From: Methylopila jiangsuensis
GTDB lineage: Bacteria > Pseudomonadota > Alphaproteobacteria > Rhizobiales > Methylopilaceae
NCBI RefSeq assembly: GCF_027922305.1
Contig: NZ_BSFK01000007.1
Span: forward strand, 248,001 to 312,000
DNA: 64,000 nucleotides
Direction of reading: 5' to 3'
The position numbers were made by a program, and so were the translations under genes. Position 1 is the first letter of the stretch. The number at the start of each line of letters is the position of its first letter. Under the pieces are notes generated by a model. The model ran no database searches. It saw only the letters and a program-made list of their open reading frames with translations, and was not told where the DNA came from. Positions 3,418 to 37,636 of the stretch are shown here, piece after piece.

Positions 3418-3963
3418 TCACCGCGTTGGCGCCCGCCATTCGAAGCGGCCGTGGCCGTCCTCGTCGGTCCACAAGGGAACCGCGCGGCCGATGACGGCGC
3501 TGGCCGGGATCGGGCCGAAATAGCGGCCGTCCAGACTGTCGGGAACGTCCCAGTTCATGAGGAAGATCTCGCCGTCCGCGACGATGCGGCAGCCCTGCCA
3601 ATCGGGGAGCGGTCGGTCGATGCGGTCGCGTTGGAGTGCCGTTCCCATCGCGACGCCGTCGACACTGATCAGGACGCCGGAGCGGCAGACGGTCTGCCCG
3701 GGAAGGCCAAGGACCCGTTTCAGGAGCGGCGTGTCGCGCGGCAGGTATCCGCCATCGGCGAGGAAGCTCGCAATCGGTTCCGGCGCAGCGACGGCGACCA
3801 GATCGGTGACTTCGAGCCGCTTTGCAGGTTCGACCGAATAGAAACCGATCGGGGTGCTGGCCGAGGCATTCCAGATGAGTTTGGTGGGGGCGTCGATCCA
3901 CGTCGTCACGGCGATCGCGCTGGACGCTACGAACGTCGCCATGGCCCATTTGAGGTCGGTCAT
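3418..3963 (-). CDS. traF: TraF-type S26 signal peptidase (181 aa)
   Basis: A membrane-bound serine peptidase of family S26. TraF members process and cyclise the conjugative pilin TrbC in RP4-type systems. Residues 5-22 form a single N-terminal membrane anchor. Ser36 in ASTPIGFYS is the expected nucleophile and Lys82 in LLKRVLGLPG the general base; C-terminal DSLDGRYFGPI matches the conserved DSRYFG-type box. The ATG overlaps the stop of the DUF2840 gene by 4 bp (ATGA), implying translational coupling. The pilin it would process is outside the window. Confidence 0.88.
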   Translation of the reverse strand: MTDLKWAMATFVASSAIAVTTWIDAPTKLIWNASASTPIGFYSVEPAKRLEVTDLVAVAAPEPIASFLADGGYLPRDTPLLKRVLGLPGQTVCRSGVLISVDGVAMGTALQRDRIDRPLPDWQGCRIVADGEIFLMNWDVPDSLDGRYFGPIPASAVIGRAVPLWTDEDGHGRFEWRAPTR

Positions 3964-4481
3964 GGCGCGATCCTCCGACGCTTAAGCCACGCCTGGTGCT
4001 GATCGCGCGAGTAGCGGCGTGCGTCCTGGCCGGCGCTCAGTCGGTTGTGTACATGCCGCCAATAGTCTGGCGCGGCTTCGGCCGGATCGAGCGAAAGGGC
4101 CTCGATCGCGTCGATGAGCTGCAGCACGCGTTCAACCTTCGGCCAGCTTTCGATCTTGAGCAGGATGTCGCCGCCGGGGCGTACAAAGGGCAGCGTCTGA
4201 TAGGCTTCGCCGGGCGTGATGGCGCGCACGATATCGATGCGCGAGATGATCGTGCCGAAGTCGTTGGACGCCCACCGGACGAAGGCGAAAGTCGTGCCGG
4301 GCCTGAAGGAGAGGACGCGGCGGCGGCGATCAAGGATCGTCTCCTGCACGTCTTGACCGAACCTGATCCAGTATTCGATCTGCTTTTCCACCCATGTCAG
4401 CTCGACGTGGGTGAGACGGTCGGTTTGAAAAGACGACGGCATCGAGCCGCCGCGCATGCGGGGGGCCGCGATGCCGGTCAT
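3960..4481 (-). CDS. DUF2840 domain protein (173 aa)
   Basis: A member of DUF2840, a family of unknown function that travels next to traF and parA in alphaproteobacterial ICEs. Recognisable stretches are HVELTWVEKQIEYWIRFG, RRRVLSFRPGTTFAFVRWASNDFGT and GDILLKIESWPKVERVLQLIDAIEAL. The ATG shares ATGA with the upstream RHH gene and its stop overlaps traF, so the three are translationally coupled. No catalytic motif is obvious. A role in transfer or partition is inferred only from context. Confidence 0.85.
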   Translation of the reverse strand: MTGIAAPRMRGGSMPSSFQTDRLTHVELTWVEKQIEYWIRFGQDVQETILDRRRRVLSFRPGTTFAFVRWASNDFGTIISRIDIVRAITPGEAYQTLPFVRPGGDILLKIESWPKVERVLQLIDAIEALSLDPAEAAPDYWRHVHNRLSAGQDARRYSRDQHQAWLKRRRIAP

Positions 4482-4732
4482 GACGGGTCTCCTGGCGATT
4501 GGGGGAATTCGCGCGCGAGCAATTCGCGAAGCATGTCGGCGACGGTGACGCCGCGTTGAAAGGCGGCGATCTTGATGCGACCGCGCACCTCCGGCGTAAC
4601 GTCGATGGTCAGCCTTGCGGTGAAGCCCGTGCTGGAAGCTGGACCGGGCGACCCCGGTTCAGCGGACTTGATCCAGTCGTCTGGATTGGAAGGCCGGGCG
4701 ACGAAGCCGCGCCGGGCGCTGGCTTTGGTCAT
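4478..4732 (-). CDS. Small ribbon-helix-helix partition partner of ParA (84 aa)
   Basis: The C-terminal half, TARLTIDVTPEVRGRIKIAAFQRGVTVADMLRELLAREFP, has the beta strand-helix-helix pattern of ribbon-helix-helix DNA-binding proteins. The N-terminal 35 residues look flexible and basic. Such a small protein directly downstream of parA (ATGA overlap at 4729-4732) is the expected centromere-binding partner in type Ib partition systems. It would recruit ParA to a parS site and may repress the operon. Function is inferred from fold pattern and position. Confidence 0.75.
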   Translation of the reverse strand: MTKASARRGFVARPSNPDDWIKSAEPGSPGPASSTGFTARLTIDVTPEVRGRIKIAAFQRGVTVADMLRELLAREFPQSPGDPS

Positions 4733-5367
4733 GGCGCCAACCTCCCGACTTCCGCAGTCAGGGCGGCGATCTCGCGCGCGGCCGCGCTATTGTCGTCGGC
4801 CTCAAAAACGAGGCGCCCGGACTGTGCTAGGTCGGCGAAGGCGACACGCTGGCCGATCGTCGCCGACAGCAGGGGCGGATCGTGGTCGGCCAATGTCTCG
4901 GCGGTCTCGCGGGCGATGACGGTGCGTGCAGCGCAGCGGTTGAGTACGAAGCGGGCCATGAGTTGCGGCCGATAGATTCGGGCCTCTGCGAGCAGCGCCA
5001 GCATTTCGGCCGAGGCCCAGCCATCGAGCGGTGACGGCTGCACAGGGATCAGGACAAGATCGGCGGCGAGCAGCGCCGAACGCATAAGACCTGCAACGCG
5101 CGGTGGTCCGTCGATGACGATGTGATCGGCGTCACGCGCGAGCTCGGGCGCTTCGCGATGAAGTGTGTCGCGCGCCAAGCCGATGACGCCGAACAGGCGA
5201 GGCAGGCCCTCGCGGGTGCGTTGCTGCGACCAGTCGAGCGCCGATCCCTGTGGGTCGGCATCGATCAGGGTGATGCGCTTGCCTTCACGCGCCCATTGAC
5301 CGGAAAGATGCAGCGCGAGCGTCGTTTTGCCGACGCCGCCTTTCTGATTGAGAAGCGCGACGATCAT
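4729..5367 (-). CDS. parA: ParA-family partition ATPase (212 aa)
   Basis: A Walker-type ATPase for segregation of the excised circular ICE. The deviant Walker A motif KGGVGKTT is at residues 9-16, Walker A' LIDADPQGSALDW at about 38-50, and VIDGPP (Walker B) near 88. It is short, without an N-terminal HTH, as in type Ib plasmid ParA/ParF. Its start overlaps the end of repA by 4 bp and its stop overlaps the RHH gene, giving a repA-parA-RHH block typical of a plasmid replicon. Its presence argues that the excised ICE is replicated and partitioned rather than passive. Confidence 0.92.
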   Translation of the reverse strand: MIVALLNQKGGVGKTTLALHLSGQWAREGKRITLIDADPQGSALDWSQQRTREGLPRLFGVIGLARDTLHREAPELARDADHIVIDGPPRVAGLMRSALLAADLVLIPVQPSPLDGWASAEMLALLAEARIYRPQLMARFVLNRCAARTVIARETAETLADHDPPLLSATIGQRVAFADLAQSGRLVFEADDNSAAAREIAALTAEVGRLAP

Positions 5368-6524
5368 TTCGCGCCTCCAGGCTCGTCGCCGAAGGTGCGA
5401 TGCGCGTGGCCGGAAGAGCGGTCCGTACAGGCGGAGCTACGAAGAGCCTGATCGGTTACATGCGCTTGAAGTGATGGCTTTTTGGCCTGGTTCGGCCGCC
5501 TTCCGGCGATGTTTTCCACATCGCGCGCGCGCTCTAAGAAGTTAGATTCTTGGTTAGACTCTAAGTTAAGGGCGCGATTTCGCTTTTTGTTTCCAGAGCT
5601 TACACCCTGTTTCGGTTCCCGATAGCACGAGCCTCCGGTTCCCGATAGCACGATAGGTCGGGTTCCTGATAGCACGAGGCCGTCCACAGGTTGTCCACAG
5701 GCCGCCGATGGTTCAAAAGCAAGCAGCAACCGGCCGCCGACTTCGACCTCAAGGAACAGCGAGTAGCCGGGCAATGGCTGGCGGCGAATGATGTCGCGCA
5801 GCTCGAACGCGAAGCGCTTGAATGGCGAAAGACTGCCGGATTTCTGATGCAGGTGGCGGAAGTCGAAGCGCCAGCCATTGCGTTGTTTGCCGCCATGCTT
5901 GCGCACAATGCGGTAGAGCCAGCGGTCGAGGCCTCCAGTGAGACCGAAATAGTCCCGGTCGATGGTCAGGACGAGCGCATCGTCGAGAACGGCGCGGTAG
6001 AACCAGTCCGGCACGATCAGCTCGATGCCGGCGGGACGCCCATGGCGATCGGTGCGCTCCTGCCATTCATTGATCCAGGAGAAACGGTGGCGGCGGCCTT
6101 CGGCCGCTTGCCGTATCGAGGTTGCGACCGTGGTCGACTGCAGCCGGTCGAGGGCAGCCTTGAGGCGCTGATAATCGCGCATCGATACGCCGCGGCCGAT
6201 GAAATTGAGGATCTCGTAGGGGGTGGCGGCCATCAGGCGCGAAGTGCGAAGACCTTTGTCGCGCGCTTCGACGATCTGGCTCGCCGCCCAGATGAGGATG
6301 TCGGCATCCCAGATTGTGGCCATGCCATGATCGGGAACCGCCTCGACGCGGATGCTCACGTCGCCGGCGACGAAATCGATCGGCGCGGTGCGGTGTGACT
6401 TGGAGAGGGAGAAGAACGGATAGGCCATGAGGTCCTGCGCGTCGCGGGGCGCGAAATCGCCAGGGAGCGCGTGGAACAGATCGAGTTGTCCGCGCTCCGG
6501 AGATGGGCGATGCCGCGTCGTCAT
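5364..6524 (-). CDS. repA: Replication initiator protein A (RepA/RPA family, 386 aa)
   Basis: Resembles the replication initiator A family of alphaproteobacterial plasmids and ICEs: QLDLFHALPGDFAPRDAQDLMAYPFFSLSKSHRTAPIDF at the N-terminus, DADILIWAASQI and YEILNFIGRG in the middle, then a winged-helix-like region containing FRHLHQKSGSLSPFKRFAFELRDIIRRQPLPGYSL. It should bind iterons and load the host replisome. Three 19-bp direct repeats and a DnaA-like box fall inside the coding region at 5612-5702, so the gene probably carries its own origin. The last ~110 residues, encoded over and after the iterons, are low complexity. The gene is 17 bp downstream of rdfS and overlaps parA. Confidence 0.85.
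   Translation of the reverse strand: MTTRHRPSPERGQLDLFHALPGDFAPRDAQDLMAYPFFSLSKSHRTAPIDFVAGDVSIRVEAVPDHGMATIWDADILIWAASQIVEARDKGLRTSRLMAATPYEILNFIGRGVSMRDYQRLKAALDRLQSTTVATSIRQAAEGRRHRFSWINEWQERTDRHGRPAGIELIVPDWFYRAVLDDALVLTIDRDYFGLTGGLDRWLYRIVRKHGGKQRNGWRFDFRHLHQKSGSLSPFKRFAFELRDIIRRQPLPGYSLFLEVEVGGRLLLAFEPSAACGQPVDGLVLSGTRPIVLSGTGGSCYREPKQGVSSGNKKRNRALNLESNQESNFLERARDVENIAGRRPNQAKKPSLQAHVTDQALRSSACTDRSSGHAHRTFGDEPGGAK
5612..5677 (-). repeat. Three iteron-like direct repeats inside repA
   Basis: Three near-identical 19-mers lie head to tail at 5612-5630, 5635-5653 and 5659-5677. On the minus strand the core is TCGTGCTATCGGGAACC; the third copy has A for G once. Periods are 23 and 24 bp, about two helical turns, as expected for iterons bound on one DNA face by an initiator. 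They are not multiples of three, so this is not a protein repeat. Confidence 0.8.
5612..5702. other. Candidate replication origin (iterons plus DnaA-like box) within repA
   Basis: Right after the three iterons lie two direct copies of GTCCACAGG at 5682-5690 and 5692-5700. TTGTCCACA at 5691-5699 is one mismatch from the DnaA consensus TTATNCACA. An iteron array beside a DnaA box is the layout of theta-type plasmid origins. No obvious AT-rich unwinding element is inside the coding region, although 5530-5580 downstream is relatively AT-rich. Confidence 0.55.
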
Positions 6525-6541
6525 TGAAAAGACCGCGCGGA

Positions 6542-6823
6542 TCAGCGGGCGTGACGGCCGGCATGGGATGCCGGTGCGGGCTCATGGCGTTTCGCGGGCA
6601 GCACGCTGCCCCGCGGATCGGAGGTGGACGTCACGGCGCCGCGTTCAGCCCATGCCTCAAGCTCATTGACGGAATAGACGACGCGCCCGCCAAGCTTGCG
6701 ATAGGCCGGCCCGGTGCCGTAGGTCCGGTGCTTTTCGAGAGTACGGGCCGAGAGACTGAGGAATTCTGCGGCTTCCTTGGTGCGGAGGAAGCGCGGCGGC
6801 AGGGTCGCGAGATTGGCGTTCAT
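6542..6823 (-). CDS. rdfS: RdfS-like excisionase (HTH, 93 aa)
   Basis: A small MerR/AlpA-type winged-helix protein: RFLRTKEAAEFLSLSARTLEKHRTYGTGPAYRKLGGRVVYSVNELEAWAE is the HTH_17 signature of recombination directionality factors. In ICEMlSymR7A, RdfS of similar size drives integrase towards excision and lies downstream of fseA, as here. It is 17 bp upstream of repA, so excision, replication (repA) and partition (parA) are probably expressed together. The GGAGG ribosome site abuts a strong hairpin at 6834-6880. A second AlpA-like gene next to the integrase (37334-37636) is the alternative excisionase. Confidence 0.75.
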   Translation of the reverse strand: MNANLATLPPRFLRTKEAAEFLSLSARTLEKHRTYGTGPAYRKLGGRVVYSVNELEAWAERGAVTSTSDPRGSVLPAKRHEPAPASHAGRHAR

Positions 6824-6833
6824 GGTGGCCTCC

Positions 6834-6880
6834 GTGGCTTTCGTTGGAGCCGCTGGCGATCAGCGGCGAACGAAGGCCAC
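6834..6880 (-). promoter_or_regulatory. Long hairpin abutting the rdfS ribosome-binding site
   Basis: GTGGCTTTCGTT (6834-6845) pairs with AACGAAGGCCAC (6869-6880) at 11 of 12 positions, and inside it GCCGCTG (6849-6855) pairs with CAGCGGC (6861-6867). In the rdfS transcript this stem ends directly beside the GGAGG site at about 6829-6833, ten bases before the start codon. It could limit ribosome access or stabilise the message. Confidence 0.6.
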
Positions 6881-6891
6881 GGTGGCGAAGA

Positions 6892-6937
6892 AGAATAGCG
6901 AAGGGGGAGTGCGAACTTGGGGGGGCCTAATTCGCAC
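6892..6937 (-). promoter_or_regulatory. rdfS: Candidate rdfS promoter with dyad operator
   Basis: GTGCGAA (6909-6915) and TTCGCAC (6931-6937) form a perfect 7-bp inverted repeat with half-site centres 22 bp apart, two helical turns. A -10-like TATTCT lies on the minus strand at 6892-6897, with no good -35 at the normal distance because the dyad occupies that region. This is the arrangement of an activator-dependent promoter; FseA is the natural candidate activator by analogy with ICEMlSymR7A. Confidence 0.5.
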
Positions 6938-6958
6938 ACCTTGCCCTAGTAGCGCAGG

Positions 6959-7730
6959 TTACGAACGACGGCGGTGACGAAGAAGCTTGCGGTAACCGCC
7001 GTCGATCATCGCGAAGCCGTCCTTGACCAGATCGAGGACAGCGTCCCGGAGCGCGGACGTTTTCCATGGGTCGCTGGCAACGCGTTCAACGCCGAAAATC
7101 GCTTCGGCGATCTCGCGATAGTCGGCATTGTGCAAACGGCCGTCAGCGGCGCGGAGCATGTTTTTGAGACGACGGCGCTGCTGCGCCGTCATCCGGCTGT
7201 CCTGTGACACAGGCAGGCCGTGAAGGCTTCGCCAGAGTCTGATCAGTGACTGGACACGATCCAGGCTGTGGGCGTCGAGCGGAATGATGGCGGCGATGGA
7301 CTGCGTCGGCTCGAGACCCGCTCTCGCGACAAGGTGCAGGCGACCGCTTCCGGTGAGAACCGATATATGCAGTCCTTCCTCTGAACTGCGGCTGATTTCC
7401 GAGCGAATATCCTCGAAAATGCGAGGGCTGACCTGCTCAATTTCCGGGGCGGGTCCGATATGGACTACGCTGGTGTCAGCTTCCGGCGTCCAGAAAACCG
7501 GTTGTTCGAGTGCATTCAGGCTGGGCCTGGCGGGGAAATCGGAGACCCCAGCGACCGCCGATCGCTTCGGTCTCAGGCCCGAGTTCGGAGGCCGTGCGGA
7601 TGGAGTTTGCGTAGTCGCGCTGGTAATCGAGATTGCGCCGAAGGCACTCCCACGCCAGTGCATTCACATCTGCCCGATCGAGATAGTCGTATGTAGTTGA
7701 TGATCGCCATTCTCTTGTATCGGGCGTCAT
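6959..7730 (-). CDS. fseA: FseA-like excision activator (DUF6499 + DUF2285) encoded in two frames
   Basis: The first frame starts at the ATG 7728-7730 after GGGGAGGA and encodes MTPDTREWRSSTTYDYLDRADVN..., a DUF6499 domain; it would stop after 84 residues at 7476. The second frame, ending at 6959, encodes FPARPSLNALEQPVFW... and a C-terminal DUF2285 domain (about 190 aa) without a good start of its own. The 772-nt span equals 257 codons plus one base, so a single +1 shift yields a 256-aa protein. In ICEMlSymR7A the equivalent genes msi172 and msi171 are fused by programmed +1 ribosomal frameshifting into FseA, which activates rdfS. Position just upstream of rdfS and downstream of a qseM-like gene supports this. 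A sequencing error or true pseudogene is the alternative. Confidence 0.8.
7529..7538 (-). promoter_or_regulatory. fseA: Candidate +1 programmed frameshift site (TTT CCC C GCC)
   Basis: In the fseA message codons 65-66 are TTT CCC (7538-7533), followed by C at 7532 and then GCC (7531-7529) in the new frame. A proline tRNA on CCC can slip one base forward onto an identical CCC, a classic +1 slippery arrangement. The fused reading RFP-ARPS joins the two domains without gap. The next zero-frame codon is CGC, not a stop, so shift efficiency may be low. Confidence 0.65.
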
Positions 7731-7799
7731 TTAATCCTCCCCGTTCAGCGAATACGCGTACAGAGCGAATTGATTCCGGGGATTCTATTTCTTGGGAAG

Positions 7800-7823
7800 G
7801 TTGCAAGGCGCAACAGGCGTTGC
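7800..7823. promoter_or_regulatory. Inverted and direct GTTGC repeats between qseM and fseA
   Basis: GTTGC (7800-7804) and GCAAC (7810-7814) form a dyad with 5-bp spacing, and GTTGC recurs at 7819-7823. They lie in the 112-bp gap upstream of fseA, about 70 bp from its start. This is a plausible regulator site for the fseA promoter. I see no canonical TraR box (tra box) here. Confidence 0.35.
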
Positions 7824-7842
7824 ACTTGAGACAACACGGGAT

Positions 7843-8106
7843 CTAATGAGGCCGGCCGCGCCTGAGCTGCCGGTAGCCATGCTCGGTCATCCAGTGTGCG
7901 CGAGCCAGATGGCTGTCGTGGACGCGGCGAGCGCGGTCCGGCTCAGTCCTTGGACAGATGCCGAAAAGAACCTCGGCCGCTTCCCGCCAGTCTGCTCCAT
8001 CTGCCTCTGCGTCCAGCAGACGAGCATAGAGTTTGATGTGCTGTCGGTCATATTCGGTGAGCGACAGCATGGAAGGGGCTTCGTCGAGGAAATCAATTGT
8101 GGTCAT
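7843..8106 (-). CDS. qseM: QseM-like antiactivator (stand-alone DUF2285, 87 aa)
   Basis: A short DUF2285 protein: DWREAAEVLFGICPRTEPDRARRVHDSHLARAHWMTEHGYRQL aligns by eye with the C-terminal domain of the neighbouring FseA (DYREIAEAIFGVE...RDAVLDLVKDGFAMIDGGYRKLL). In ICEMlSymR7A the equivalent QseM is an antiactivator that binds both TraR and FseA and blocks transfer. Size and position immediately upstream of fseA fit. The ribosome site is weak, suggesting low expression. Assignment rests on family and synteny. Confidence 0.78.
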   Translation of the reverse strand: MTTIDFLDEAPSMLSLTEYDRQHIKLYARLLDAEADGADWREAAEVLFGICPRTEPDRARRVHDSHLARAHWMTEHGYRQLRRGRPH

Positions 8107-8200
8107 TAGTCGGCACGTGACACTCTGGGATGGCGGTTGCTATTCTTAAGCACCATTACAGCGCGACGATGACAAGCGGGAGGCGGTAGAAGGGTGGGAA

Positions 8201-8461
8201 TTACCGGACTCTGCTGCGTTCGGCTGCTTCGTGCACATCGACAAGCATAACCCCTTCGTTGCGGCCCGATCTGATGAAGGCGATTCCTTCGGCCTCAAGC
8301 GCTCTGCGGACCTGGTCGCTGGTGCTTTCATACACACGCAGTTCAGCGGCCGACTCCATGCGCTTGAGCGCCGTCAGCGAAACCTTGGCCTTGTCAGCGA
8401 GCATCTCCTGTGTCCAACCCAGTAATGCGCGCGCGGCCCGTGTTTGTCGGGAAGTGATCAT
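8201..8461 (-). CDS. qseC: XRE-family HTH regulator, QseC-like (86 aa)
   Basis: TRAARALLGWTQEMLADKAKVSLTALKRMES is an XRE/Cro helix-turn-helix at residues 7-37, followed by a short C-terminal sensor-like region (IAFIRSGRNEGVMLVDVHEA). Position upstream of qseM matches QseC of ICEMlSymR7A, which controls qseM and its own gene. The ATG at 8459-8461 follows GGGAGG by 9 bases and sits inside a perfect 18-bp palindrome, suggesting autoregulation. If not QseC, it is still the probable local repressor of this control cassette. Confidence 0.7.
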   Translation of the reverse strand: MITSRQTRAARALLGWTQEMLADKAKVSLTALKRMESAAELRVYESTSDQVRRALEAEGIAFIRSGRNEGVMLVDVHEAAERSRVR

Positions 8462-8471
8462 GCATGATCAC
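8454..8471. promoter_or_regulatory. qseC: Perfect 18-bp palindrome over the qseC-like start codon
   Basis: GTGATCATGCATGATCAC is fully self-complementary and contains the start codon of the HTH gene. A dimeric HTH repressor bound here would block translation-initiation DNA and elongation from the promoter at 8510-8515. Autorepression is inferred. Confidence 0.6.
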
Positions 8472-8509
8472 CTCCCACCGTGCGTCAACGTCACGCCAGA
8501 ACTACGGCT

Positions 8510-8515
8510 ATTATA
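8510..8515 (-). promoter_or_regulatory. qseC: -10 element of the qseC promoter
   Basis: The minus strand reads TATAAT at 8515-8510, a perfect -10 hexamer about 50 bp before the start codon; no clear -35 is present at 16-18 bp. It would give a short leader containing the GGGAGG ribosome site and the palindrome. Confidence 0.5.
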
Positions 8516-8703
8516 GACGGAGTTGGAGTGGAAAGCGACCCAGAATCGGTGTTCCTAGAGATTTGACGTCTGGTCAGCGGCGGGGGCGATTCGGGCAGTG
8601 CTGGGTTCTCTCCAAGCCAAGGCGAGCAGGAGAGATTGTTCGAGGCTTATCGTGCTGCCGGGAGACGACGACCCATGCCAGGAACGCCAGACAATTAGGA
8701 AAT

Positions 8704-8725
8704 CCCGGCGGCTTGCGCCGCCGGG
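8704..8725 (-). terminator. Hairpin downstream of ssb
   Basis: CCCGGCGGC (8704-8712) and GCCGCCGGG (8717-8725) form a 9-bp stem with a GCAA tetraloop in the ssb transcript, 16 bp after its stop. The following ATTTCC is a weak U tract, so termination may be partial. Confidence 0.55.
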
Positions 8726-8740
8726 CTCCCGGTATCCCGC

Positions 8741-9142
8741 TCAGAACGGGATGTCATCGTCGTCGATGAACTTGCCGTCTTCGTTCTGGGTCTGCTTTGC
8801 CCGGCTGAGGAAGTCCACCGTCTCGGCGATGATCTCGCAGCCGTAGCGCTCAACGCCCTGCTGATCGGTCCACTTGGTGTAGTGGATGCGGCCGCGAACC
8901 AGAACCTTCATGCCCTTCTCGCAATGCTGCTGGATCGTCTTACCGAGGCCGTTGAAGGCGGTGATCCGGTGCCATTCGGTGTCCTGGACGCGATAGCCGT
9001 CCTTGTCTCGGACAACCTTGCCTTCCGAGTAGCGGGGGCGCGAGGTGGCCAGCGTGAAGTGGGTGATCGAGGTGCCGCTCTGGGTGTTGCGGGTTTCGGG
9101 GTCCTGGCCGATGTTGCCGGCAAGAATGACGATGTTCTGCAT
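8741..9142 (-). CDS. ssb: Single-stranded DNA-binding protein (133 aa)
   Basis: An OB-fold SSB: MQNIVILAGNIGQDPETRNTQSGTSITHFTLATSR, WHRITAFNGLGKTIQQHCEKGMKVLVRGRI and the acidic C-terminal tip DDDDIPF that recruits replication and repair proteins. It would protect the transferred strand during conjugation. The frame is open upstream, but the ATG at 9140-9142 begins the conserved sequence and follows GGAGA. At 133 aa it is shorter than a chromosomal SSB because the Gly/Pro linker is nearly absent. Confidence 0.95.
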   Translation of the reverse strand: MQNIVILAGNIGQDPETRNTQSGTSITHFTLATSRPRYSEGKVVRDKDGYRVQDTEWHRITAFNGLGKTIQQHCEKGMKVLVRGRIHYTKWTDQQGVERYGCEIIAETVDFLSRAKQTQNEDGKFIDDDDIPF

Positions 9143-9849
9143 TGTAAGTCTCCGTTGCTTCTCGAAGGGACCATCCCTCCGACGAGACCCGGCCAAGGCC
9201 GTCGGGAGACGCCAGCAAGTGCCGCCTTGGCGGCACCTCGCCCTTAAGGCCCGGAGTGGAGCGGGCAGCCGCGCTTGCGCGGCAACACGGTCCGGAGCCG
9301 CGGGGGTTGCGGTCGGAAACCGAACGGACTTAGGGGATCAGTCAGTCGGAGGGATTGGCGCCTCGGAAAGCTCACACCGGGGACGCACAGCAGAACCGTT
9401 CGTCCTTCCCGGCAACGAGGGCACTACAGGCCCCGATATGAAACCCGCATCAGAGCGGGGTGCGCGCCGCCGGGATCGCCGTCACGAGCCGCAGCACGCC
9501 GCCAGTCGGAAGGCGAGCCGGGACCAGGACGAAACGGCTATTGGGCTCGAGGATGTATGGCGTTGTTCCACCCCGTCGGCCGAAGGTGCGATCTAGTGAA
9601 TTGCAGGGCTGGAGAGCATGAAGGTGTTCGCGGACGCCACGACACGGAGGGGAACGAAGCAGAGAGTGGCGACCTTGCTAAGGCTGGGAGGGTATCAGCC
9701 GATGACCGACTTCCACAGCGGGGCCAATCGGAGCGAAGACCCTGGCCCTTACAGCGCCGGTGGCGCCATTCCTCAGAGCAGGATGCCGGAAGCCCAACAG
9801 TGCAAACCGGCGCAGATTTTTTTGTGACGAGCGGCGATTCGCGATCGCA
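9143..9849. other. 707-bp region without a recognisable gene
   Basis: I find no convincing coding region. The part next to ssb is rich in short GC hairpins: GGGACCATCCC (9167-9177), TGCCGCC/GGCGGCA (9220-9235), and GCCGCG/CGCGGC near 9270-9285. The first is also found upstream of the small gene at 19800-19964. The stretch 9310-9849 shows nothing I can name. It presumably includes the ssb promoter. Confidence 0.4.
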
Positions 9850-10266
9850 TCAGCGAGACAGGACGCCTGTACCGAGCGCATTGAGATTGAGCATCGCCGC
9901 TATGCCGATGAAGAGACCGCCGGCGCCGCCGAGCAGGTTCAGCATAATCGTCGAGTCGACGAAATTCTTCGTGACGCCATGCACGAGCGCATAACCGGCG
10001 ATCATCGCCGGCACCGCGAATACGGCGAGGGCGATAAGCCCCAAGGCCGGGTTCTTGGCAAAGCCTACGACGGCGATGACCAGCGCCACGGATAGCAGCG
10101 CCGCGCCGAGGGCGGCGAGCGCCGACAGCAGGAAGCCGGCCTCCATTCCATAGACATATTGAAAGGCCGTCAGCCCGACCATGAACGGCAAGGCGTAGAT
10201 GGCAAAGTTGTAGGCGATGACGCAAAGCGCGATCGTCAGGGAGATGGCAAGCAGGATGAGGGTCAC
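9850..10266 (-). CDS. Small integral membrane protein of unknown function (138 aa)
   Basis: Very hydrophobic, with about four membrane spans (residues 3-25, 43-62, 64-82 and 95-130), including a Gly/Ala-rich last span LLGGAGGLFIGIAAMLNLNALGTG. Translation most likely begins at GTG 10264-10266, 5 bp after GGAGG. I do not recognise a family with known function. It is flanked by ssb and DUF2493 genes of the ICE backbone, so it may act in mating-pair stability or exclusion, which is only a guess from position. Confidence 0.7.
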   Translation of the reverse strand: MTLILLAISLTIALCVIAYNFAIYALPFMVGLTAFQYVYGMEAGFLLSALAALGAALLSVALVIAVVGFAKNPALGLIALAVFAVPAMIAGYALVHGVTKNFVDSTIMLNLLGGAGGLFIGIAAMLNLNALGTGVLSR

Positions 10267-10430
10267 GGCAGCCTCCGCATGAACGATTGAGGATCACCAC
10301 AGGCTGCCGGATAATACGCTCCGCCTGCGACTATGCCAGTTCGCCGTTGCTGCAAATATTCTTCAAGAAAGCCATCAACCTCGTGTTCAGTCAAGTAGAG
10401 GCGGCTGGCAGGCCGCCGAGCGGCGGCGCT

Positions 10431-11366
10431 TTACGCGCCGCCGTCGAACTTCATGACTGGAATGCCGAGCTTGCGCGCCTTATCCGCAAGGTTCTCCTGA
10501 ATCCCGGTGCCGGGGAAGACCAGGACGCCGACCGGCAGGACATCGAGCATGGCGTCGTTGCGCTTGAAGGGCGCGGCCTTGGCGTGCTTCGTCCAGTCGG
10601 GCTTGAAGGCGACCTGCGGCACCTTGCGACTGTCAGCCCAGCGGGAGGCGATCAGTTCGGCGCCCTTCGGCGAGCCGCCGTGCAGGAGCACCATGTCCGT
10701 GTGCTTGGCATGAACCTGATCGAGCTTCGTCCAGATCAGGTTGTGATCGTTGAAGTCCGCACCGCCCGTGACGGCGACTCTGGGACCGGCGGGCAGCAGC
10801 ACCTCGGTCTCGGTCCGGCGCTTAGCGGCGAGGAAATCGCGGCTGTCGATCATTGCCGAGGTGAGGTTGCGATGGTTGACCATCGAACCGCTGCGCGGCC
10901 GCCAGGGCGTGCCGGTGTGGTGCTCGAAGGCGTCCGCCGAGAGGTCGCGGAAGAGTTCCATGCTGTTGCGCCGTTCGACCAGGGTCTGTCCCTCCGCCGT
11001 GAGGCGTTCGAGTTCGACGCTCTTGACCTCGCTGCCATCCTGTTCCCGCTGAAGGCGGCGCTGCCCCTGCTCGTTGTCGTCGAGTTCGCGTTCGACCCGG
11101 TCGGCGGCGCGATGGAAGAGATTGACCGTCGACCAGAGGAGATCGTCGAGATCGGGTTCGAGGCGGGTGTCGCCGAGCGTCGAGACGAGGGCGTCGAAGA
11201 TGTCTGCGACGGCTGCGGCGACGGCGTTGCCCTCCGGTAGCGGACGCGGATCGGGTTCGTCCTGGAAAGCGCGGTAGCCATAGAGCTGGAGTTCGGTGAG
11301 GACGTGATCGGTGGGGGATGAGGTGTGGAACGGCTCGAAGCCTGCGTCATCGTCTTCGTTCATCAT
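10431..11366 (-). CDS. DUF2493 (SLOG-like) domain protein (311 aa)
   Basis: The C-terminal ~120 residues (RVAVTGGADFNDHNLIWTKLDQVHAKHTDMVLLHGGSPKGAELIASRWADSR) match DUF2493, a Rossmann-like SLOG-superfamily domain. The Gly-rich VTGGADF and LHGGSPKGAE loops are those expected to bind a nucleotide ligand. The N-terminal half is helical and charged. The family is common on ICEs and phages; its role is unknown, although SLOG proteins are often linked to nucleotide signalling or DNA uptake. Start chosen at ATG 11364-11366, 8 bp after AAGGA; the next ATG codon is the alternative. Confidence 0.85.
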   Translation of the reverse strand: MMNEDDDAGFEPFHTSSPTDHVLTELQLYGYRAFQDEPDPRPLPEGNAVAAAVADIFDALVSTLGDTRLEPDLDDLLWSTVNLFHRAADRVERELDDNEQGQRRLQREQDGSEVKSVELERLTAEGQTLVERRNSMELFRDLSADAFEHHTGTPWRPRSGSMVNHRNLTSAMIDSRDFLAAKRRTETEVLLPAGPRVAVTGGADFNDHNLIWTKLDQVHAKHTDMVLLHGGSPKGAELIASRWADSRKVPQVAFKPDWTKHAKAAPFKRNDAMLDVLPVGVLVFPGTGIQENLADKARKLGIPVMKFDGGA

Positions 11367-23462: not shown

Positions 23463-24416
23463 TCACGCCGCCTCCCTCTCATCGTCGTTCTGGTCGATGC
23501 CGCCGGAATCCGGCAGGAAGCTGAGAAGCCAGTCGGCCGCCTTGCTGGCCTGGGAGGCGGCTCGGACGATGGCGCGATTGTCCTCGCGCAGGACGTCCAG
23601 CCAGGAGCCGATATAGTCGGCATGGCGGACGGTTGGAGCGATACCGAACGAGGCACAGCAGAAGGCCGCGTTGATCTCGGCGATCAGCTCCTCGAAGGCG
23701 TATTTCTTGGTGCCGAAGGAGCCGGAAAAATCACGGCCGAGGCGCGAGGGATGGCCCGTCGCGTGTCCGAGCTCGTGCAGGGCCGTACGGTGCCAGTTGA
23801 TCGGCTCGAAATACGCCTGCGGCGGCGGAACGACGACATAGTCATGCGTCGGGACATAGAACGCGCGGTTTCCGCCGATGCGGAAATCGATGCCGGTCGC
23901 CCGGATCAGGGCCTCGACGCGCGGCTCAATCAGGCCCAGTTCGGGCGGCGGTGCGACGGCGGCGACTTCCTCGGGCAGGCCATCGCATTGAGCAGCGTTG
24001 AAGACCGTGAAGCGCTTCAGGAACGGAATCGCCTGAGCGTCCCCGCCAGCCTCACGGGCGCGGCGCTTTTCGTCCTCGGGGGTGAAACGGTCGACATAGA
24101 CGACGGTTGTGCCGCGCTCGCCCTTCCTGACATTGCCGCCGAGGGAAAGCGCCTGGCGGAAGGTGAGCCAGCTCTGGCCGGGGAAACCATGCTCGATGAC
24201 GGCGCCCCAGAGAATGAGGACATTGATCCCCGAATAGCGCCGGCCTGTGGCGGCGTTCTGCGGCATGGCAAGCGGCGCCTTGACCGCGGCCGAGCCCCAG
24301 GGCTGAACCCAGGGGAAGCGGCCGGCCTCCAGTTCGTCGATGATCTTGTTTGTGATATCGTCGTAAAGGCTCGCCCGATCCGAGCCGGCGCGCGCGCTGC
24401 GATCCTGTCTGGACAT
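23463..24416 (-). CDS. ardC: ArdC-like antirestriction protein (317 aa)
   Basis: Two domains: N-terminal ssDNA-binding ArdC domain (SLYDDITNKIIDELEAGRFPWVQPW...GRRYSGINVLILW...SWLTFRQALSLGGNVRKGERGTTVVYVDRF) and C-terminal zincin metallopeptidase with HELGHATGHPSRLGRDF (HExxH zinc motif) and a downstream EELIAEINAAFCC. ArdC from plasmid pSa protects incoming single-stranded DNA from host restriction. It is expressed from a leader copy identical in architecture to that of parB. Length is typical. It is adjacent to the cargo region, a common insertion point. Confidence 0.92.
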   Translation of the reverse strand: MSRQDRSARAGSDRASLYDDITNKIIDELEAGRFPWVQPWGSAAVKAPLAMPQNAATGRRYSGINVLILWGAVIEHGFPGQSWLTFRQALSLGGNVRKGERGTTVVYVDRFTPEDEKRRAREAGGDAQAIPFLKRFTVFNAAQCDGLPEEVAAVAPPPELGLIEPRVEALIRATGIDFRIGGNRAFYVPTHDYVVVPPPQAYFEPINWHRTALHELGHATGHPSRLGRDFSGSFGTKKYAFEELIAEINAAFCCASFGIAPTVRHADYIGSWLDVLREDNRAIVRAASQASKAADWLLSFLPDSGGIDQNDDEREAA

Positions 24417-25543: not shown

Positions 25544-28500
25544 TTACTGAAAATCCCGCGTCTTCACCTTGATCGTATCGATGTGCAGGTCGGGTATGTA
25601 GATGTCGCGCGGTCGAACCGTTTTCGGCGGCTGACCGCGAGGGTCCGGGGTTGGCGAACCATGGTGGAATTCGTCGCCGCGCCCATGCGTCAATGGAAAG
25701 GCCGTGTCGCGCTCGCCAACGCTGGCCAACTCGGCGGAGAGATCGGTCAGCCTCTGGGCGACAAGATGGACCACTTCCCCCTCCCGCTGAACGCGCCCGC
25801 GCACCGCGATCATGCCGGCCGACAGAATGGTGCGGCGGTTCTGCTCGAAGACCTTGGGCCAGACCACGAGGTTGGCGATCCCGCTCTCATCTTCGAGCGT
25901 GATGAACATGACGCCCTTGGCACTGCCGGGACGTTGCCGCACCAGCACGATGCCGGCCGCCTCCAGCCATCGGCCGTCCTTTGCGTCCATCGCCTCCTGG
26001 CAGGAGACCACACGACGACGGCGCAGCTCCTGGCGCAGAAACGAGACCGGGTGGTCCCGCAGCGACAGGCTGACATGCCGATAGTCTTCGACGACTTCAC
26101 CGCCCGCCGTCATCGGGCGCAGGATAACGGCCGGCTCGGCGACCTCAGGCACGATTTCCGCCTCGCGGGCCGACGCGCCAGCGAAGAGCGGAAGCGGCTC
26201 GTCGCGCAAAGCCTTGATCGCCCATAGCGCCTCACGGCGCGTAAGACCGAAGGGCGGGCGAAACCCGTCGGCTTCGGCGATCTGCGTGAGCGCCGTAACG
26301 GGCACGCCGGCACGGCGCCAGAGATCGTCCACTGAGCCGAAGGGCTGGTCCGCCCTGGCCGTGACGATCGACGCGCCGTGGGCGTTGGCGAGCCCCTTGA
26401 CCATGCGCAGACCAAGGCGAACGGCGAACCGCTCATCGCTGCCGGTGGGCTCGAGCGTGCAGTCCCATCGGGAGGCGTTGGCGCAGACGGGGCGGATCTC
26501 GACGCCGTGATCGCGCGCGTCGCGGACGATCTGGGCCGGCGCGTAGAAGCCCATGGGCTGGCTGTTCAGCAGCGCGGCGCAGAAGATTTCCGGGTGCCAG
26601 CATTTGAGCCAGGCCGAGGCATAGGCGATCAGCGCAAAAGAGGCTGCGTGACTTTCCGGGAATCCGTAACTGCCGAAGCCCTCAAGCTGCTTGAAGGTCT
26701 GCTCGGCAAACGCCTGCTCGTAGCCGTTGGCGACCATGCCGGCGATCAGCTTGTCACGGAAGCGCGAGACGCCGCCGGTGAACTTGAAGGTGGCCATCGA
26801 CTTGCGGAGCATGTCGGCCTCGCCGGGGGTGAAGCCGGCGCATTCGATGGCGACACGCATCGCCTGTTCCTGAAAGAGCGGCACGCCGAGCGTCTTGCCG
26901 AGCACTTTCTCCAGCTCAGGCTTCGGATAGTGGACGGGCTCGAGGCCCTCCCGGCGGCGAAGATAGGGATGCACCATGTCGCCCTGGATCGGACCGGGCC
27001 TGACGATCGCGACCTGGACGACGAGGTCATAATAGGTGCGCGGCTTCAGGCGCGGCAGCATCGACATTTGTGCGCGGCTCTCGATCTGGAAGGTGCCAAG
27101 CGTGTCCGCCTTGCGGATCATCGCGTAAGTGCGCGGGTCCTCGGCCGGGATGGAGGCAAGGTCGAGATGGACGCCCTTGTGCTCAGCCAGGAGGTCCAGC
27201 CCTTTCTTCATGCAGGTCAGCATCCCGAGCGCCAGGACGTCGACCTTCATGAACTTGAGGGCGTCGATATCGTCCTTGTCCCATTCGATGACCTGCCGGT
27301 CCTTCATCGCAGCCGGTTCGATCGGCACGAGGTCGTCGAGCCTGTCATGGGTCAGCACGAAACCGCCAGGATGCTGGCTAAGATGGCGCGGCGCGCCTAT
27401 GAGCTGCCGGGCGAGGTCGAGCGTCAGGCGAAGCCTGCGATCGGCTAGGTTGAGGTTCAGCTCCTCGACGTACTTCTGTTCAACGCCTTCCTCCGACCAG
27501 GCCCAGACCTGCGACGACAGGGTGCCGATCAAATCCTCGGGGAGGCCAAGCGCCTTACCGACATCCCGCAGCGCGCCCTTGGTGCGATAGCGGATGACGG
27601 TCGAGCAGAGCGCGGCGTGGTCGCGGCCGTAGGTGTCGAACACCCACTGCATGACGATCTCGCGCCGCTCGTGTTCAAAATCGACGTCAATGTCGGGCGG
27701 CTCGCGCCGCTCCTCGCTGACGAAGCGCTCGAAGAGAAGATCGTTCCGGCCGGGATCAATCGACGTGATGCCGAGGACGTAGCACACCGCAGAGTTGGCG
27801 GCTGATCCACGGCCTTGGCAAAGGATGTCCTTCGATCGCGCGAAGCGGACGATCGAATTCACGGTCAGGAAGTACGGCGCGTAGTCGAGCTTCTCGATCA
27901 GCCGCAGCTCGTGTTGAAGCGCGGCGGTCACGCTGTCAGGCACGCCGTCCGGATAGCGCGCGGCGGCGCCTTCCCAGGTGAGCTTGGCCAGTGTCTCCTG
28001 CGGCGTAAGGGCAGGATCGTCGCGCTCCTCGGGATATTGATAGGCCAGCTCGTCGAGATTGAAACGGCAGCGGTCGGCGATCTGCAGGCCTCGGGTGAGC
28101 GCCTCGGGGTAGCGGCCGAAGAGACGGTGCATCTCCTCGGGCGGCTTGATGTAGCGGTCGGCATGACGCTCGCGGCGGTCGCCGATCGTGTCGATCGTGA
28201 CGTTGTGCCGGATGCAGGTGACGACGTCCTGGAGGGTGCGGCGGGCCGGCTCGTGGAAGAGGACGTCGTTCGTTACCACGGTCGCGACCCGGATTTGGGC
28301 GGCGAGGTTGGAAAGCTCGTGAAGACGGAGCTGATCGTTGGGGCGGCGACGCAGCGTCAAAGCCAAGTAAGCCCGATCGCCGAACGCATCGCGCAAGCGG
28401 CGCAGCCGAAGGCCGCATTCCTCGTCCGCGAGCTCCGGCACGAGCACGGCGATCAAGCCTTCGCCGTAGGCGACGAGGTCCTGCCATTCGAGCACGCACT

Positions 28501-28816
28501 TCGCCTTTCCGCCGCGCCGCTTGCCGAGCGACAGCAGCCGGCAGAGACGGGAATAAGCGGGTCGGTCGGTTGGATAGACCAGCACCGACATGCCGTCGGT
28601 GAGGTCGAGACGGCAGCCGACAATTAGGCGAACCCCGGTTGTCTTCGCCGCTTCATGAGCCCGGACGATGCCGGCGAGCGAATTCCGGTCCACCACGGCC
28701 AGCGCTTCGATCCCGGCGAGCGCGGCTTGGGCGAACAGCTCCTCGCAAGATGAGGCCCCCCGGAGAAAGCTGAAATGCGAGGTGACCTGAAGTTCGACGT
28801 AGCGGGGCTCGCTCAT
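25544..28816 (-). CDS. dnaE2: Error-prone DNA polymerase DnaE2 (1090 aa)
   Basis: A C-family polymerase alpha subunit of the error-prone DnaE2 (ImuC) class. The N-terminal PHP domain begins [26 protein letters not shown]. The polymerase core has [18 protein letters not shown] and the catalytic acidic motif [16 protein letters not shown], and the C-terminal OB-fold ends in [13 protein letters not shown]. With ImuA and ImuB it forms the mutasome for translesion synthesis and damage-induced mutagenesis. The frame is open upstream but the ATG at 28814-28816 overlaps the imuB stop (ATGA). Length is close to that of chromosomal DnaE2 (about 1,080). Confidence 0.95.
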
Positions 28817-30333
28817 CCGAAGACCCCGTGAATGAACCAGCGGTGCGAGCCTGTGGCGACATCTTCGCCATCGCCGGCGCGGAACAGCCAGTAGCGTTCG
28901 CCGGCATCGTCCTCGACCCGGAAATAGTCGCGGACGGCAACCAGCTCGGCATCGCGCTTCCACCATTCGCCGAACACGCGCTCCGGCCCGTCGCCACGCC
29001 GAAGGCGGCGGCGGATGCCGCGCCAGGTGAACGACACCGGCGGATGGTCGGGAAGCAACGCCACGGTCTCGACCGGCTCAGGGGCCGGCAGAAGCCGGGA
29101 GGGCCGCGGCCAATGGCCGGGCCAGCCCGCTCCCGTGTCGGCCGCCATCGCCGGGATACGACAGACAGACCGCTCCGGAACATCGCTGGCGACCGGTGCA
29201 AGCCGATAGAGGGCACGCTCGCCCACGCGGTTCATCAAGGTATCAATGAGATCGGAGACGTCCGGGGTGCTCTCCTCGACCAGCGAGCTGACGATCTGCT
29301 TGCGCTCAAGCGGCTCAGCGACGCTTGCGGCGAGGGTCATCACCTCGATGCCGAAGCCGGGCGAGATGGTCTCGATCTTGTCGCACAGGAGGCGCGTCAG
29401 CCGCTTCGCATCGCGGACCGGCGTGGCCATGCCGACCCGCACGGCCTGGGCCCGGCTATCGACGCGGTGGCAGATGAGATCGAGCCTGCGTGCGCCGAGG
29501 CCGCCTTCCTCCAGACGTTCGCAGAGCTGGGTGACAAGCTTGCCGATGTAACGGGCGATGGTCTCGGCCGCGCCGATCGGCTCGGCGAAGGCCCGGCGCA
29601 CCTCGATGAGATCGGCCGGACGGACCGGCTCGATGAGTTCGGCCGCAATGCCCAAGGCCTGGTCCAAGCGTCGGCCGAGTTCGGGGCCGAAGCGAAGGGT
29701 GAGCGGCGCGCGCGGCTGCGCCAGAAGGTCGCCGACCGTTCGGAAGCCGAGCGTGCGAAGCGCCGCGATGGTGGGAGATGGAATGCGCAACGCCTCTAGC
29801 GGCAAACGCTCCAAGATGGGCGAGCCGTGGCCCTCGGGCGCGATGACAGCCGGCTGCGCTGAAAATCGGGCCAGCGCATGGGCTGCTCCCCAGGTGTCGG
29901 CTATCGCGACTCTCGCGGAGATCCCGGACATGGCGAGGCGCCCGATCAAGCCGTCCAGCATGACAGTCTCCCCGCCGTGGAGATGATCCGCGCCTGTCGA
30001 GTCAATGATGAGGCCGTCGGGCGGATCGGGGGCGACGATTGGCGCATACCGGAGAAGCCATACCGCGAGACGCTCAAGCGCCTCGGCGTCGGCAGCGGGA
30101 TCGGCATCCTGCACGAGGAGACCCGGCACCAGGACTTGCGCCTTAGTGACGGGCATGCCGGCGTGCAGGCCGGCGGCCTGGGCCGCAGCATTCGCCGCCA
30201 GCACCACCCGCCTGTTCCCGTCGCGGCCAATCAGGACGAGCGGCGCCTCAGCCGGAGGCGCCGCGTCGCCAGCCTTCCGCCGAAGCCGGTCCGTGGACCA
30301 GTTCGGCAGGAAGAGCGAGACGACCCGTGTCAT
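28813..30333 (-). CDS. imuB: ImuB, catalytically inactive Y-family polymerase homologue (506 aa)
   Basis: A Y-family protein that bridges DnaE2 to the sliding clamp. It starts [19 protein letters not shown]: where active Y-polymerases have DxDxFFxxVE the sequence is PNWSTD, so the catalytic acid is missing, as in other Imu[12 protein letters not shown]-type motif ([15 protein letters not shown]) and the HhH region [24 protein letters not shown] are visible. ATG at 30331-30333 lies inside imuA, which it overlaps by 86 bp. Part of the SOS-regulated imuA-imuB-dnaE2 operon. Confidence 0.92.
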
Positions 30334-32110: not shown

Positions 32111-34444
32111 TCAAAAGGTGAGTGCCTTCTTGACCGCGGCACGCTCGTCTTCCGCATGTTGAGCGTGCAGCTTGCCAGCTTTCCAGCTCCACACCGTAAA
32201 GCCTATCCCGCTCAGCTTGGTGATTTGGCCGGAAGGAGACACTTGGGCTTCTCCTTCCGACACTAGGCGAAGTACGACTTTGGCTGGTTCGCCCAAAGTG
32301 TCTATTTCAAACAGCTTGCCTAGCGTCGCATCCGTGAGGAGGTGATCGCCCTTCGTGTCAATGGCGACCACGGTTTTGTCGACCCACACCAAGAAGTCGG
32401 GCCAGTACGTTGAGGCCGACGCGAGATCTAACAGTGGCAAATAAAAGCCGCTGTTACGCGGATTGCGTGCCCACACTCGCTGCGACTTATCAAGCGCGCG
32501 CGCGAAGCGAAGTTCGAGGGGATTTAAGCCAGAATAGCGGCGATGCAGGGATTTGGAGAATTCTACGGCATCTGCTTCGTCAACAAGGACTGGTCCCACC
32601 GAGTACGGGGCGTCAAAGTCATTCTGAAAAATGCGTGAGTTCGATATGTAGCAATCGACAACATCTCTCGCGATTGACCGAATATGGTCGGCTGCCGGGC
32701 TTGTGAGCTCGACAAGAGCGTCGAACTTTGGAAGCTCGATATCGACGAGATTGATCGGTCCACCGGCTCTCCTAAGGGCACCGGAATAAAGGCGCTGAAG
32801 CTCGCGCCGAAAAATCGCACGCGCCGTCACGCGATTGCTGTGTTCGACTTCGACCCAGTCATAGGTGGCTTCATTGCCGGTCCCGATCTCTTGCAGAACC
32901 AGCATGCGACTACCTTGGCCGATGGTGTTCTCACCACCAGATGAAAAGTTCATCATTTTCGAGATAATCGCCGCGATAGGATCCTTTGCATTTGCCGACA
33001 GAATGCCAACAGTCGGCACTGTGCGCGGCGGCTCCGGCATGAGCTTTTCAAGGATGCGACCTCGCCCATCCTTCTTTATGCTTAGGCTGATGGCGGGATG
33101 CTCATTGAGCAGTTGCGTTCGAACATCATCCAATATCTCGTCAAAAACGCCCCGCTCATCGGAGCGAATGTAGAAATGCGCGGTATTGAGAATGGGGTTC
33201 TGATAGTGCTCGGCTCCGGGTTGGCGCAGGACGCGACCGATCACCTGAGTGATCTGCCGTGCTGAGGCCATCTCCTTGTCAATATAAGCGAAGCCGCATG
33301 TGGGATCATCCCAACCTTCTTGCAGGCCGAGGTTGAAGATGACGTGCTCGAAGTTGCCTTCTAGGAAGGTGGTATAGTCGTTGTCTCCGCCAGAAAGCAG
33401 ACGAAGTGACGGCGGCGGTGGAAAGCCTGGCCCAAACTTCAGTTGGCTGTAGATAACGATCTTAGACGGATCAATCCCGGCATTTTCTACGAGGTGGCGC
33501 CAAATAAGGATCGGTCGAGCCTGACGATCTGCGAAGGGGCGCTTGACGTCCTCGCTTATAGGGACGCCGTCGACCGTATTTGTGCTGCAGACGTAGATTG
33601 CCTTCGGCCTGAAGGGGACGGGAAGGGAGGCGGACGCCTCTTGAGCATCTCCCATGTCAGCCAGCATTGCGTCGATAGCCGTTTCCATCGGAGTGACGTA
33701 ACCGCCAATCGCGATGCGCTCCTTAACCAACCCGGCATCAACAACGGCGCGGCTTGAAACGGCGGTAGTAAAGCGCTGCTCATTCCAGCCGCGATCATTG
33801 CGAAGGCGGGCAATCGTATTTTCAAGCTGGCCAGGTAGCGCCATAGTCGCGCTTGCTGAGATCAGCGCGTCCGGCGAAAGCTCGAGGAGCCGTCTAGTTT
33901 GGAGATCCGAGAGGTTGTGACCTTCGTCGTAGACTACAATTAGCGGACGGCGCAGCCCGCCGTGTGTCCGTCGCTTCGCTATGAGGGACCAGAGCGATTC
34001 AGAGGCCAAGTCGAGTTGTGCCTGGTAAACGCGCCGGTCTCCTCCCTGACTGTCTTCAACCGCAAATTTGCCGACCGTCGCCACCAACAGAAGCGGCACT
34101 GAGTCATCTTCGAGGTCGCTCGGAGCCACCTGTAGAAGCGGCTTCACGTTGAACCCCGGCAGATTGTCAGCGTACTTCCCCGAGGAAAGGTTTGCGTACG
34201 CCTGTGAAACGACGATCCGGCCTTTAGATATCCAGAGAACGACGGGCTGGATCGGAAGCCGATCGCGAATCTGCGCGATGGCCTCAGCCAAGATCAGGGT
34301 CTTTCCGCTACCGGTGATCGACACCAACGTCTGAAGGAATGGAACCGTCGTTTGACGATCTACCATCAAAGGATTTGCGGCGTACTCGGCAAACCGTTCG
34401 GCTATCTGGCTAGACGCCTCTTGCTGAAAACTGAAGGCGTCCAT
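32111..34444 (-). CDS. res: Type III restriction enzyme Res subunit (777 aa)
   Basis: An SF2 helicase-nuclease. Walker A SITGSGKT at about 42-49, DEGH (motif II) at about 173-176, SASAT (motif III), and motif VI QVIGRVLRQPGAE. The C-terminal nuclease domain shows PD...DxK in YWPDFLVWVDKTVVAIDTKGDH. It cuts DNA together with Mod when two inversely oriented unmethylated sites communicate. The start ATG shares its A with the mod TGA (TGATG), showing coupling. Lower GC than the ICE backbone, in line with separate acquisition. Confidence 0.9.
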   Translation of the reverse strand: MDAFSFQQEASSQIAERFAEYAANPLMVDRQTTVPFLQTLVSITGSGKTLILAEAIAQIRDRLPIQPVVLWISKGRIVVSQAYANLSSGKYADNLPGFNVKPLLQVAPSDLEDDSVPLLLVATVGKFAVEDSQGGDRRVYQAQLDLASESLWSLIAKRRTHGGLRRPLIVVYDEGHNLSDLQTRRLLELSPDALISASATMALPGQLENTIARLRNDRGWNEQRFTTAVSSRAVVDAGLVKERIAIGGYVTPMETAIDAMLADMGDAQEASASLPVPFRPKAIYVCSTNTVDGVPISEDVKRPFADRQARPILIWRHLVENAGIDPSKIVIYSQLKFGPGFPPPPSLRLLSGGDNDYTTFLEGNFEHVIFNLGLQEGWDDPTCGFAYIDKEMASARQITQVIGRVLRQPGAEHYQNPILNTAHFYIRSDERGVFDEILDDVRTQLLNEHPAISLSIKKDGRGRILEKLMPEPPRTVPTVGILSANAKDPIAAIISKMMNFSSGGENTIGQGSRMLVLQEIGTGNEATYDWVEVEHSNRVTARAIFRRELQRLYSGALRRAGGPINLVDIELPKFDALVELTSPAADHIRSIARDVVDCYISNSRIFQNDFDAPYSVGPVLVDEADAVEFSKSLHRRYSGLNPLELRFARALDKSQRVWARNPRNSGFYLPLLDLASASTYWPDFLVWVDKTVVAIDTKGDHLLTDATLGKLFEIDTLGEPAKVVLRLVSEGEAQVSPSGQITKLSGIGFTVWSWKAGKLHAQHAEDERAAVKKALTF

Positions 34445-37339: not shown

Positions 37340-37636
37340 TCGGTCAATGGGGAGGATACGCGGGGCGGCAGGCGAAGCCGTCGTCGCGCGCCGGCAGCTC
37401 TCGGCCCACGCGTCGAGATCGTCGACCGCATAGCGCACCCATTTCCCGAACTTGTGAAAGACGGGACCGCCGCCCAGCGAACGATAGCATTCGAGGGTGT
37501 GAGCCTCGATCGCCAGGTAGCGCGCGGCGGCCTCCGTATCGACAAACCGAATCGGGCCGGCATCGTCGACGAACTTCGCGCGCCTGAGGATATCAGGCGT
37601 AGGCCACCGGCGTTGAGACTGTGACTTCTCAGCCAT
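37334..37636 (-). CDS. AlpA/MerR-like HTH protein overlapping the integrase gene (100 aa)
   Basis: RFVDTEAAARYLAIEAHTLECYRSLGGGPVFHKFGKWVRYAVDDLDAWAESCR is an HTH_17/AlpA-type DNA-binding domain, usual for excisionases or integrase regulators. The ATG at 37634-37636 overlaps the integrase stop by 8 bp, so both come from one message. It could be a second directionality factor beside RdfS or a regulator of the integrase. The N-terminal 35 residues are a basic extension. Confidence 0.78.
   Translation of the reverse strand: MAEKSQSQRRWPTPDILRRAKFVDDAGPIRFVDTEAAARYLAIEAHTLECYRSLGGGPVFHKFGKWVRYAVDDLDAWAESCRRATTASPAAPRILPIDRI

Follow-up and report, generated by a model that had tools for sequence, protein, structure and literature searches.

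The window analysed here, a 64,000-nt stretch of a contig from Methylopila jiangsuensis, contains on its minus strand a complete fseA gene (6959-7730) that is divided between two reading frames and that, judging by its sequence, is an FseA-family activator of the known +1 frameshift kind. The zero-frame ORF (7476-7730, minus) has a good ribosome-binding sequence, GGGGAGGATTAAATG, just 5' of its start, begins with the ATG at 7730 and ends after 84 aa at a TGA stop (7478-7476). It encodes the Msi172-like DUF6499 half of FseA (PF20109, E 2.8e-23), including a motif, AWECLRRN, that corresponds to the AWEFLRRN-like N-terminal motif of the family. The Msi171-like part, comprising the middle domain and DUF2285 (PF10074, E 6.4e-35), is read in the +1 frame from 7535 to 6959 (minus), within a mechanically delimited ORF of 6959-7663. 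The two profile matches, together with the reading of the frames, confirm the claim of the preliminary description that both halves lie in different frames, with an offset of +1; the span that it gave, 7476-7730, holds the DUF6499 half and not the whole gene. At the junction, the minus strand reads CGC TGG GGT CTC CGA TTT CCC C GCC, in which TTT occupies 7538-7536 and CCCC occupies 7535-7532. Skipping a single base joins the 65 codons from the ATG through the TTT to 191 further codons, which confirms the proposed fusion of 256 aa. The occurrence of both domains and of the same +1 offset also supports the proposed relationship with FseA from ICEMlSymR7A, encoded by msi172-msi171.

As anticipated, an rdfS-like excisionase/RDF gene (6542-6823, minus; HTH_17, PF12728, E 1.5e-10) is located directly downstream of fseA, and a similar gene occurs downstream in 72 out of 97 +1 loci; we name it rdfS by its position and fold family. 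A perfect inverted repeat, TGCGAA-N15-TTCGCA (6910-6936, minus), precedes the rdfS ATG by 87-113 nt and resembles the FseA box, for which PMC10359603 describes a pair of hexamers with 15 or 16 bp between them. Counting the near-copies of the window, 12 of the 72 loci contain a perfect repeat ending 84-91 nt before rdfS, and 29 a repeat with up to one mismatch, and no other 8-nt bin outside 72-95 nt before rdfS exceeds four loci; we consider the repeat in the window a putative box. On the other side of fseA, a gene for a putative QseM-like antiactivator (7843-8106, minus) encodes 87 aa with a lone DUF2285 (PF10074, E 7.8e-8), which matches the 'Quorum sensing master protein' in PDB 7uqt over 75 residues (E 2.3e-18) and has a net charge of -2, versus +5 for the DUF2285 of FseA. 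Of the 100 +1 loci, 67 have a QseM-like match within the 1500 nt upstream. The XRE-type HTH gene at 8201-8461 (minus; PF01381, E 8.4e-6) is, from its position, a candidate QseC-like regulator.

The genes that follow around fseA code for a replication initiator, a ParA-type protein, a DUF2840 protein, an S26 peptidase, an SLT protein and, in the same element, a DUF3363 relaxase-type protein (208-2091, minus; PF11843, E 1.6e-88). Conjugation genes (TrbI, TrbG/CagX, VirB8, TrbL, TrbE, TrbB-type and TraG) are found left of the window, in L163, and an integrase gene occupies positions 37629-39044, so that the set typical of an ICEMlSymR7A-type ICE, with a trb-type T4SS, a relaxase and an integrase, is present. 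A tRNA-Leu gene (L162:8908-8992) was rejected as the attachment site, with no stretch of at least 14 of its bases recurring in the window. Within 3962-10683, a region of 5-6.7 kb around fseA recurs with 97.2-99.96% identity in records from Devosia, Pseudochelatococcus, Hephaestia, Enterovirga and Brevundimonas (L003-L007), and this shared sequence points to recent transfer between orders. The element region also contains an ArdC-type anti-restriction gene and a DNA polymerase III alpha-type gene (23463-24416 and 25544-28966), as well as a DNA methylase gene (PF01555, 34444-36444) adjoining one for a ResIII-type protein (32111-34447), a pair that likely represents type III restriction-modification cargo.

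According to PMC10359603, there are 4709 FseA homologues, of which about 61% are split via a conserved +1 frameshift. Among the matches listed in our search, 133 distinct DUF6499+DUF2285 pairs show an offset of +1 in 100 cases, a count that is not an estimate of the frequency of the split form because lower-scoring matches were sampled incompletely; about 18 lower-scoring places, most in long open frames, were left out, as were five DUF6499 matches lacking a partner in the available DNA and exact duplicates (e.g. L005, identical there to L004). The shared offset supports a programmed +1 frameshift, as first suggested. Homologues with unbroken frames do exist and make up 31 of the 133 pairs, and the remaining two (L007 and L071) show the third offset.

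To compare junctions, we used as an anchor the first codon, W, of the motif WG[LIVMAF], by which 97 of the 100 +1 loci were alignable. All 97 have an in-frame TTT, at codon 5 in 95 loci and at codon 6 in two. C follows it in 92 loci and T in five, with CCC as the next codon in 48 loci and CGC in 34. The three unanchored loci, read by eye, show TTT-C (L134 and L135) and TGT-C (L022), the latter being the single exception among the 100 distinct +1 loci; in the other 99, TTT precedes C in 94 and T in five. TTT occupies codon 5 in only one, and codon 6 in two, of 26 anchored one-frame homologues. The best-supported reading of these junctions is that tRNA-Phe would move from UUU to UUC, at a proposed UUU-C slip site located at 7535-7538 (minus) in the window, with an upstream Shine-Dalgarno-like GGGG helping.

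The preliminary description had instead placed the slip on CCC-C, with Pro-tRNA re-pairing one base downstream. Pro-tRNAs are prone to +1 slips, and CCCC does occur in the window (7532-7535, minus; L001) as well as in nine more of the anchored +1 loci (L003, L004, L006, L008, L012, L013, L059, L063 and L106). The window peptide is the same whether the slip is at UUU-C or at CCC-C and, because of this, the product does not separate the two. Four of these ten loci, however, are the window and near-copies of the same element, and CCC-C is absent from 87 of the 97 anchored +1 loci. Besides, a slip by Pro-tRNA is impossible in the 34 loci with CGC after TTT, and the relatives L009, L061 and L066 read TTT CGC. 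The CCC-C site is thus probably wrong as the place of the slip and we consider this reading unlikely, although CCC-C could add extra slippage in the window element.

In one locus, L130, the junction reads TTT TGA and, as in prfB, a stop codon immediately follows the slip codon. In four others (L024, L027, L082 and L083), the zero frame stays open beyond the DUF2285 domain and, therefore, an early zero-frame stop is no part of the switch there.

Codon usage around the UUU-C site was evaluated in 61 +1 loci with less than 70% DUF2285 identity to one another. Glycine is encoded by GGG in 46/61 (background 0.143), leucine by TTG or TTA in 34/53 (0.146), arginine by CGA in 27/34 (0.099) and phenylalanine by TTT in 59/59 (0.292). 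Binomial P values for this bias are too small, because the loci and the background codon counts share ancestry, but its size is plain, and such strongly biased codons show that the junction is selected at the nucleotide level. The GGG codon forms part of a Shine-Dalgarno-like stretch coding for WG, with the family form TGGGGG, which reads TGGGGT in the window (7545-7550, minus). We scored its duplex over the 15 nt before TTT against the 16S anti-Shine-Dalgarno. The mean for the +1 loci was -8.60, versus -6.04 for synonymous draws, none of 200 being as low, and -5.97 for the 26 one-frame homologues. The window stretch is weak in comparison with the family mean, its duplex of -5.9 being no better than in the one-frame homologues. 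PMC10359603 describes an SD-like UGGGGG beside WGL and suggests that it stalls translation. A downstream stem-loop was rejected as a stimulator, since the 60 nt examined in the 61 loci showed no excess structure (mean z 0.09, SE 0.11).

Protein conservation also changes frame precisely at this TTT, being in frame 0 up to it and in frame +1 beyond it. Just before it, W and G are each present in frame 0 in 59 of the 61 loci; after it, frame +1 shows P at +4 in 51 loci and W at +15 in 49, with no comparable conservation in frame 0, and the columns next to W in frames 0 and +2 echo its codon. In the one-frame homologues, codon 8 is Asp in 18/26 and codon 9 is Pro in 22/26, and the split loci have, in the +1 frame, Asp (28/61) and Pro (51/61) in the same places. 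This matching spacing implies that skipping one base after TTT would cost no residue and would restore the ancestral spacing.

These data also bear on whether the two halves are made separately and then associate, without any fusion. PMC9601964 argues so for the homologues of A. caulinodans, proposing two ORFs without frameshifting, and according to PMC10359603 the domains are in contact within FseA. However, conservation in the +1 frame begins at the very codon after TTT, no start codon in that frame is conserved across the 61 loci, and five of them lack any ATG, GTG or TTG in the interval from the junction to DUF2285. Nucleotide-level selection on the junction codons and the natural one-frame fusions in 31 of the 133 pairs also count against separate synthesis. 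A separately started second ORF was thus rejected, and we regard the absence of fusion as very improbable.

An error of sequencing, or decay of the gene, would accord with an offset of a single base, and extra frame changes do occur in the family. A scan of genome contigs with the window gene retrieved seven relatives. Four near-copies (L003-L006), from Devosia equisanguinis, Pseudochelatococcus lubricantis, Hephaestia caeni and Enterovirga aerilata, show 97.2-98.9% identity to it across 812 aligned bases with zero gaps, which makes a sequencing error very unlikely as the source of the frame offset in the window; the +1 offset is, moreover, common to the 100 distinct pairs mentioned above. We thus give almost no credence to error or decay. 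The copy in Brevundimonas diminuta 470-4 (L007, 3001-3703) is 99.9% identical and keeps the junction, and its DUF2285 falls in the third frame because of an extra single-base gap downstream. L071 likewise keeps the TTT-C junction and has a further single-base frame change downstream; the two could be either broken copies or assembly errors. Transcriptional slippage, for which there is nothing beyond the frame offset itself, is equally hard to credit, because the conserved site consists only of TTT-C, with no long homopolymer, and TTT coincides with a zero-frame codon in 97/97 loci.

Returning to ribosomal slippage at UUU-C, we consider it very probable that a +1 slip from UUU to UUC makes a 256-aa FseA that activates rdfS and that is restrained by the QseM-like protein. 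Ribosomes would start DUF6499 at the ATG at 7730, and most of them would be expected to reach the stop at 7478-7476. A minority would stall while UUU occupies the P site and the GGGG located 6 nt upstream is paired to the ribosomal anti-Shine-Dalgarno; tRNA-Phe would then slip to UUC, and the +1 frame would be read on through CCC GCC. The resulting FseA would bind the inverted repeat before rdfS and induce the rdfS operon, thereby triggering excision, and the QseM-like protein would bind DUF6499 and hold FseA back. The two frames and how they are conserved, the site, the codons under selection and the neighbouring genes are observed here; that slippage occurs in M. jiangsuensis, at what rate and with which tRNA, is inferred, as are the functions assigned to the FseA box, RdfS and QseM, by homology with R7A.

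The input to this switch appears to differ from that in R7A. PF03472, the LuxR/TraR signal-binding domain, had no match in the M. jiangsuensis genome (18 contigs listed as 100% complete), with a positive E. coli control, and PF00765, for LuxI/TraI-type synthases, had none either, a result of little weight because no control matched. The lack of any LuxR/TraR-type match in this genome makes R7A-type quorum control unlikely, and the circuit in which TraR drives fseA probably does not apply here. From the excision control carried over from R7A in the preliminary description, FseA, rdfS and the frameshift hold, and the quorum input is not to be presumed.

A tree built quickly from 100 split and 31 one-frame sequences (131 rows, with L007 and L071 left out), based on 146 columns and with long branches and many open forks, required at least nine state changes, four of them forced by starred branches; repeated changes between split and one-frame fseA are only a lead. 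It is conceivable, although we hold it only tentatively and think it rather doubtful, that in this FseA/QseM switch without quorum sensing the rate of UUU-to-UUC slippage is a main gate on transfer, set by a weakened SD-like stretch and possibly supplemented by CCC-C, and that the split and one-frame states of fseA interchanged several times, as if frameshifting were tuned or dropped when elements move to other hosts.

In all, the window extends the known FseA kind by one more element, whose +1 frameshift switch is clear. It also puts names to testable nucleotides, UUU-C rather than CCC-C, preceded by selected GGG, TTG and CGA codons, which opens the mechanism to single-codon tests. The joint presence of FseA and QseM in a genome where no LuxR-type receptor was detected raises the question of what else induces transfer.

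The prfB gene (RF2) of E. coli undergoes a +1 frameshift by a one-base slip in the P site, with an SD-like stretch upstream. The fseA junction resembles it in both the upstream stretch and the proposed P-site slip, and differs in that nearly all loci lack a stop codon in the A site, TTT-TGA being found only in L130, and in that GGGG is 6 nt from the slip codon, versus 3 in prfB. RovC of Yersinia (PDB 6xz5), after which PF10074 is named, belongs to the same domain family, but its sequence match to the window is not significant (E 0.18) and, unlike FseA, it regulates a type VI secretion system. Compared with ICEMlSymR7A, the M. jiangsuensis genome has no PF03472 receptor, the window fseA is directly upstream of rdfS, and the box lies farther from the rdfS ATG than the hexamer at 62-67 in the logo published in PMC10359603. 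QseM itself (PDB 7uqt) has its likeness in the 7843-8106 product, with no TraR target found here. The window element and ICEMlSymR7A have in common an FseA that combines DUF6499 and DUF2285 with a +1 offset and WGL beside the site, rdfS with an inverted-repeat box, and a QseM-like antiactivator.
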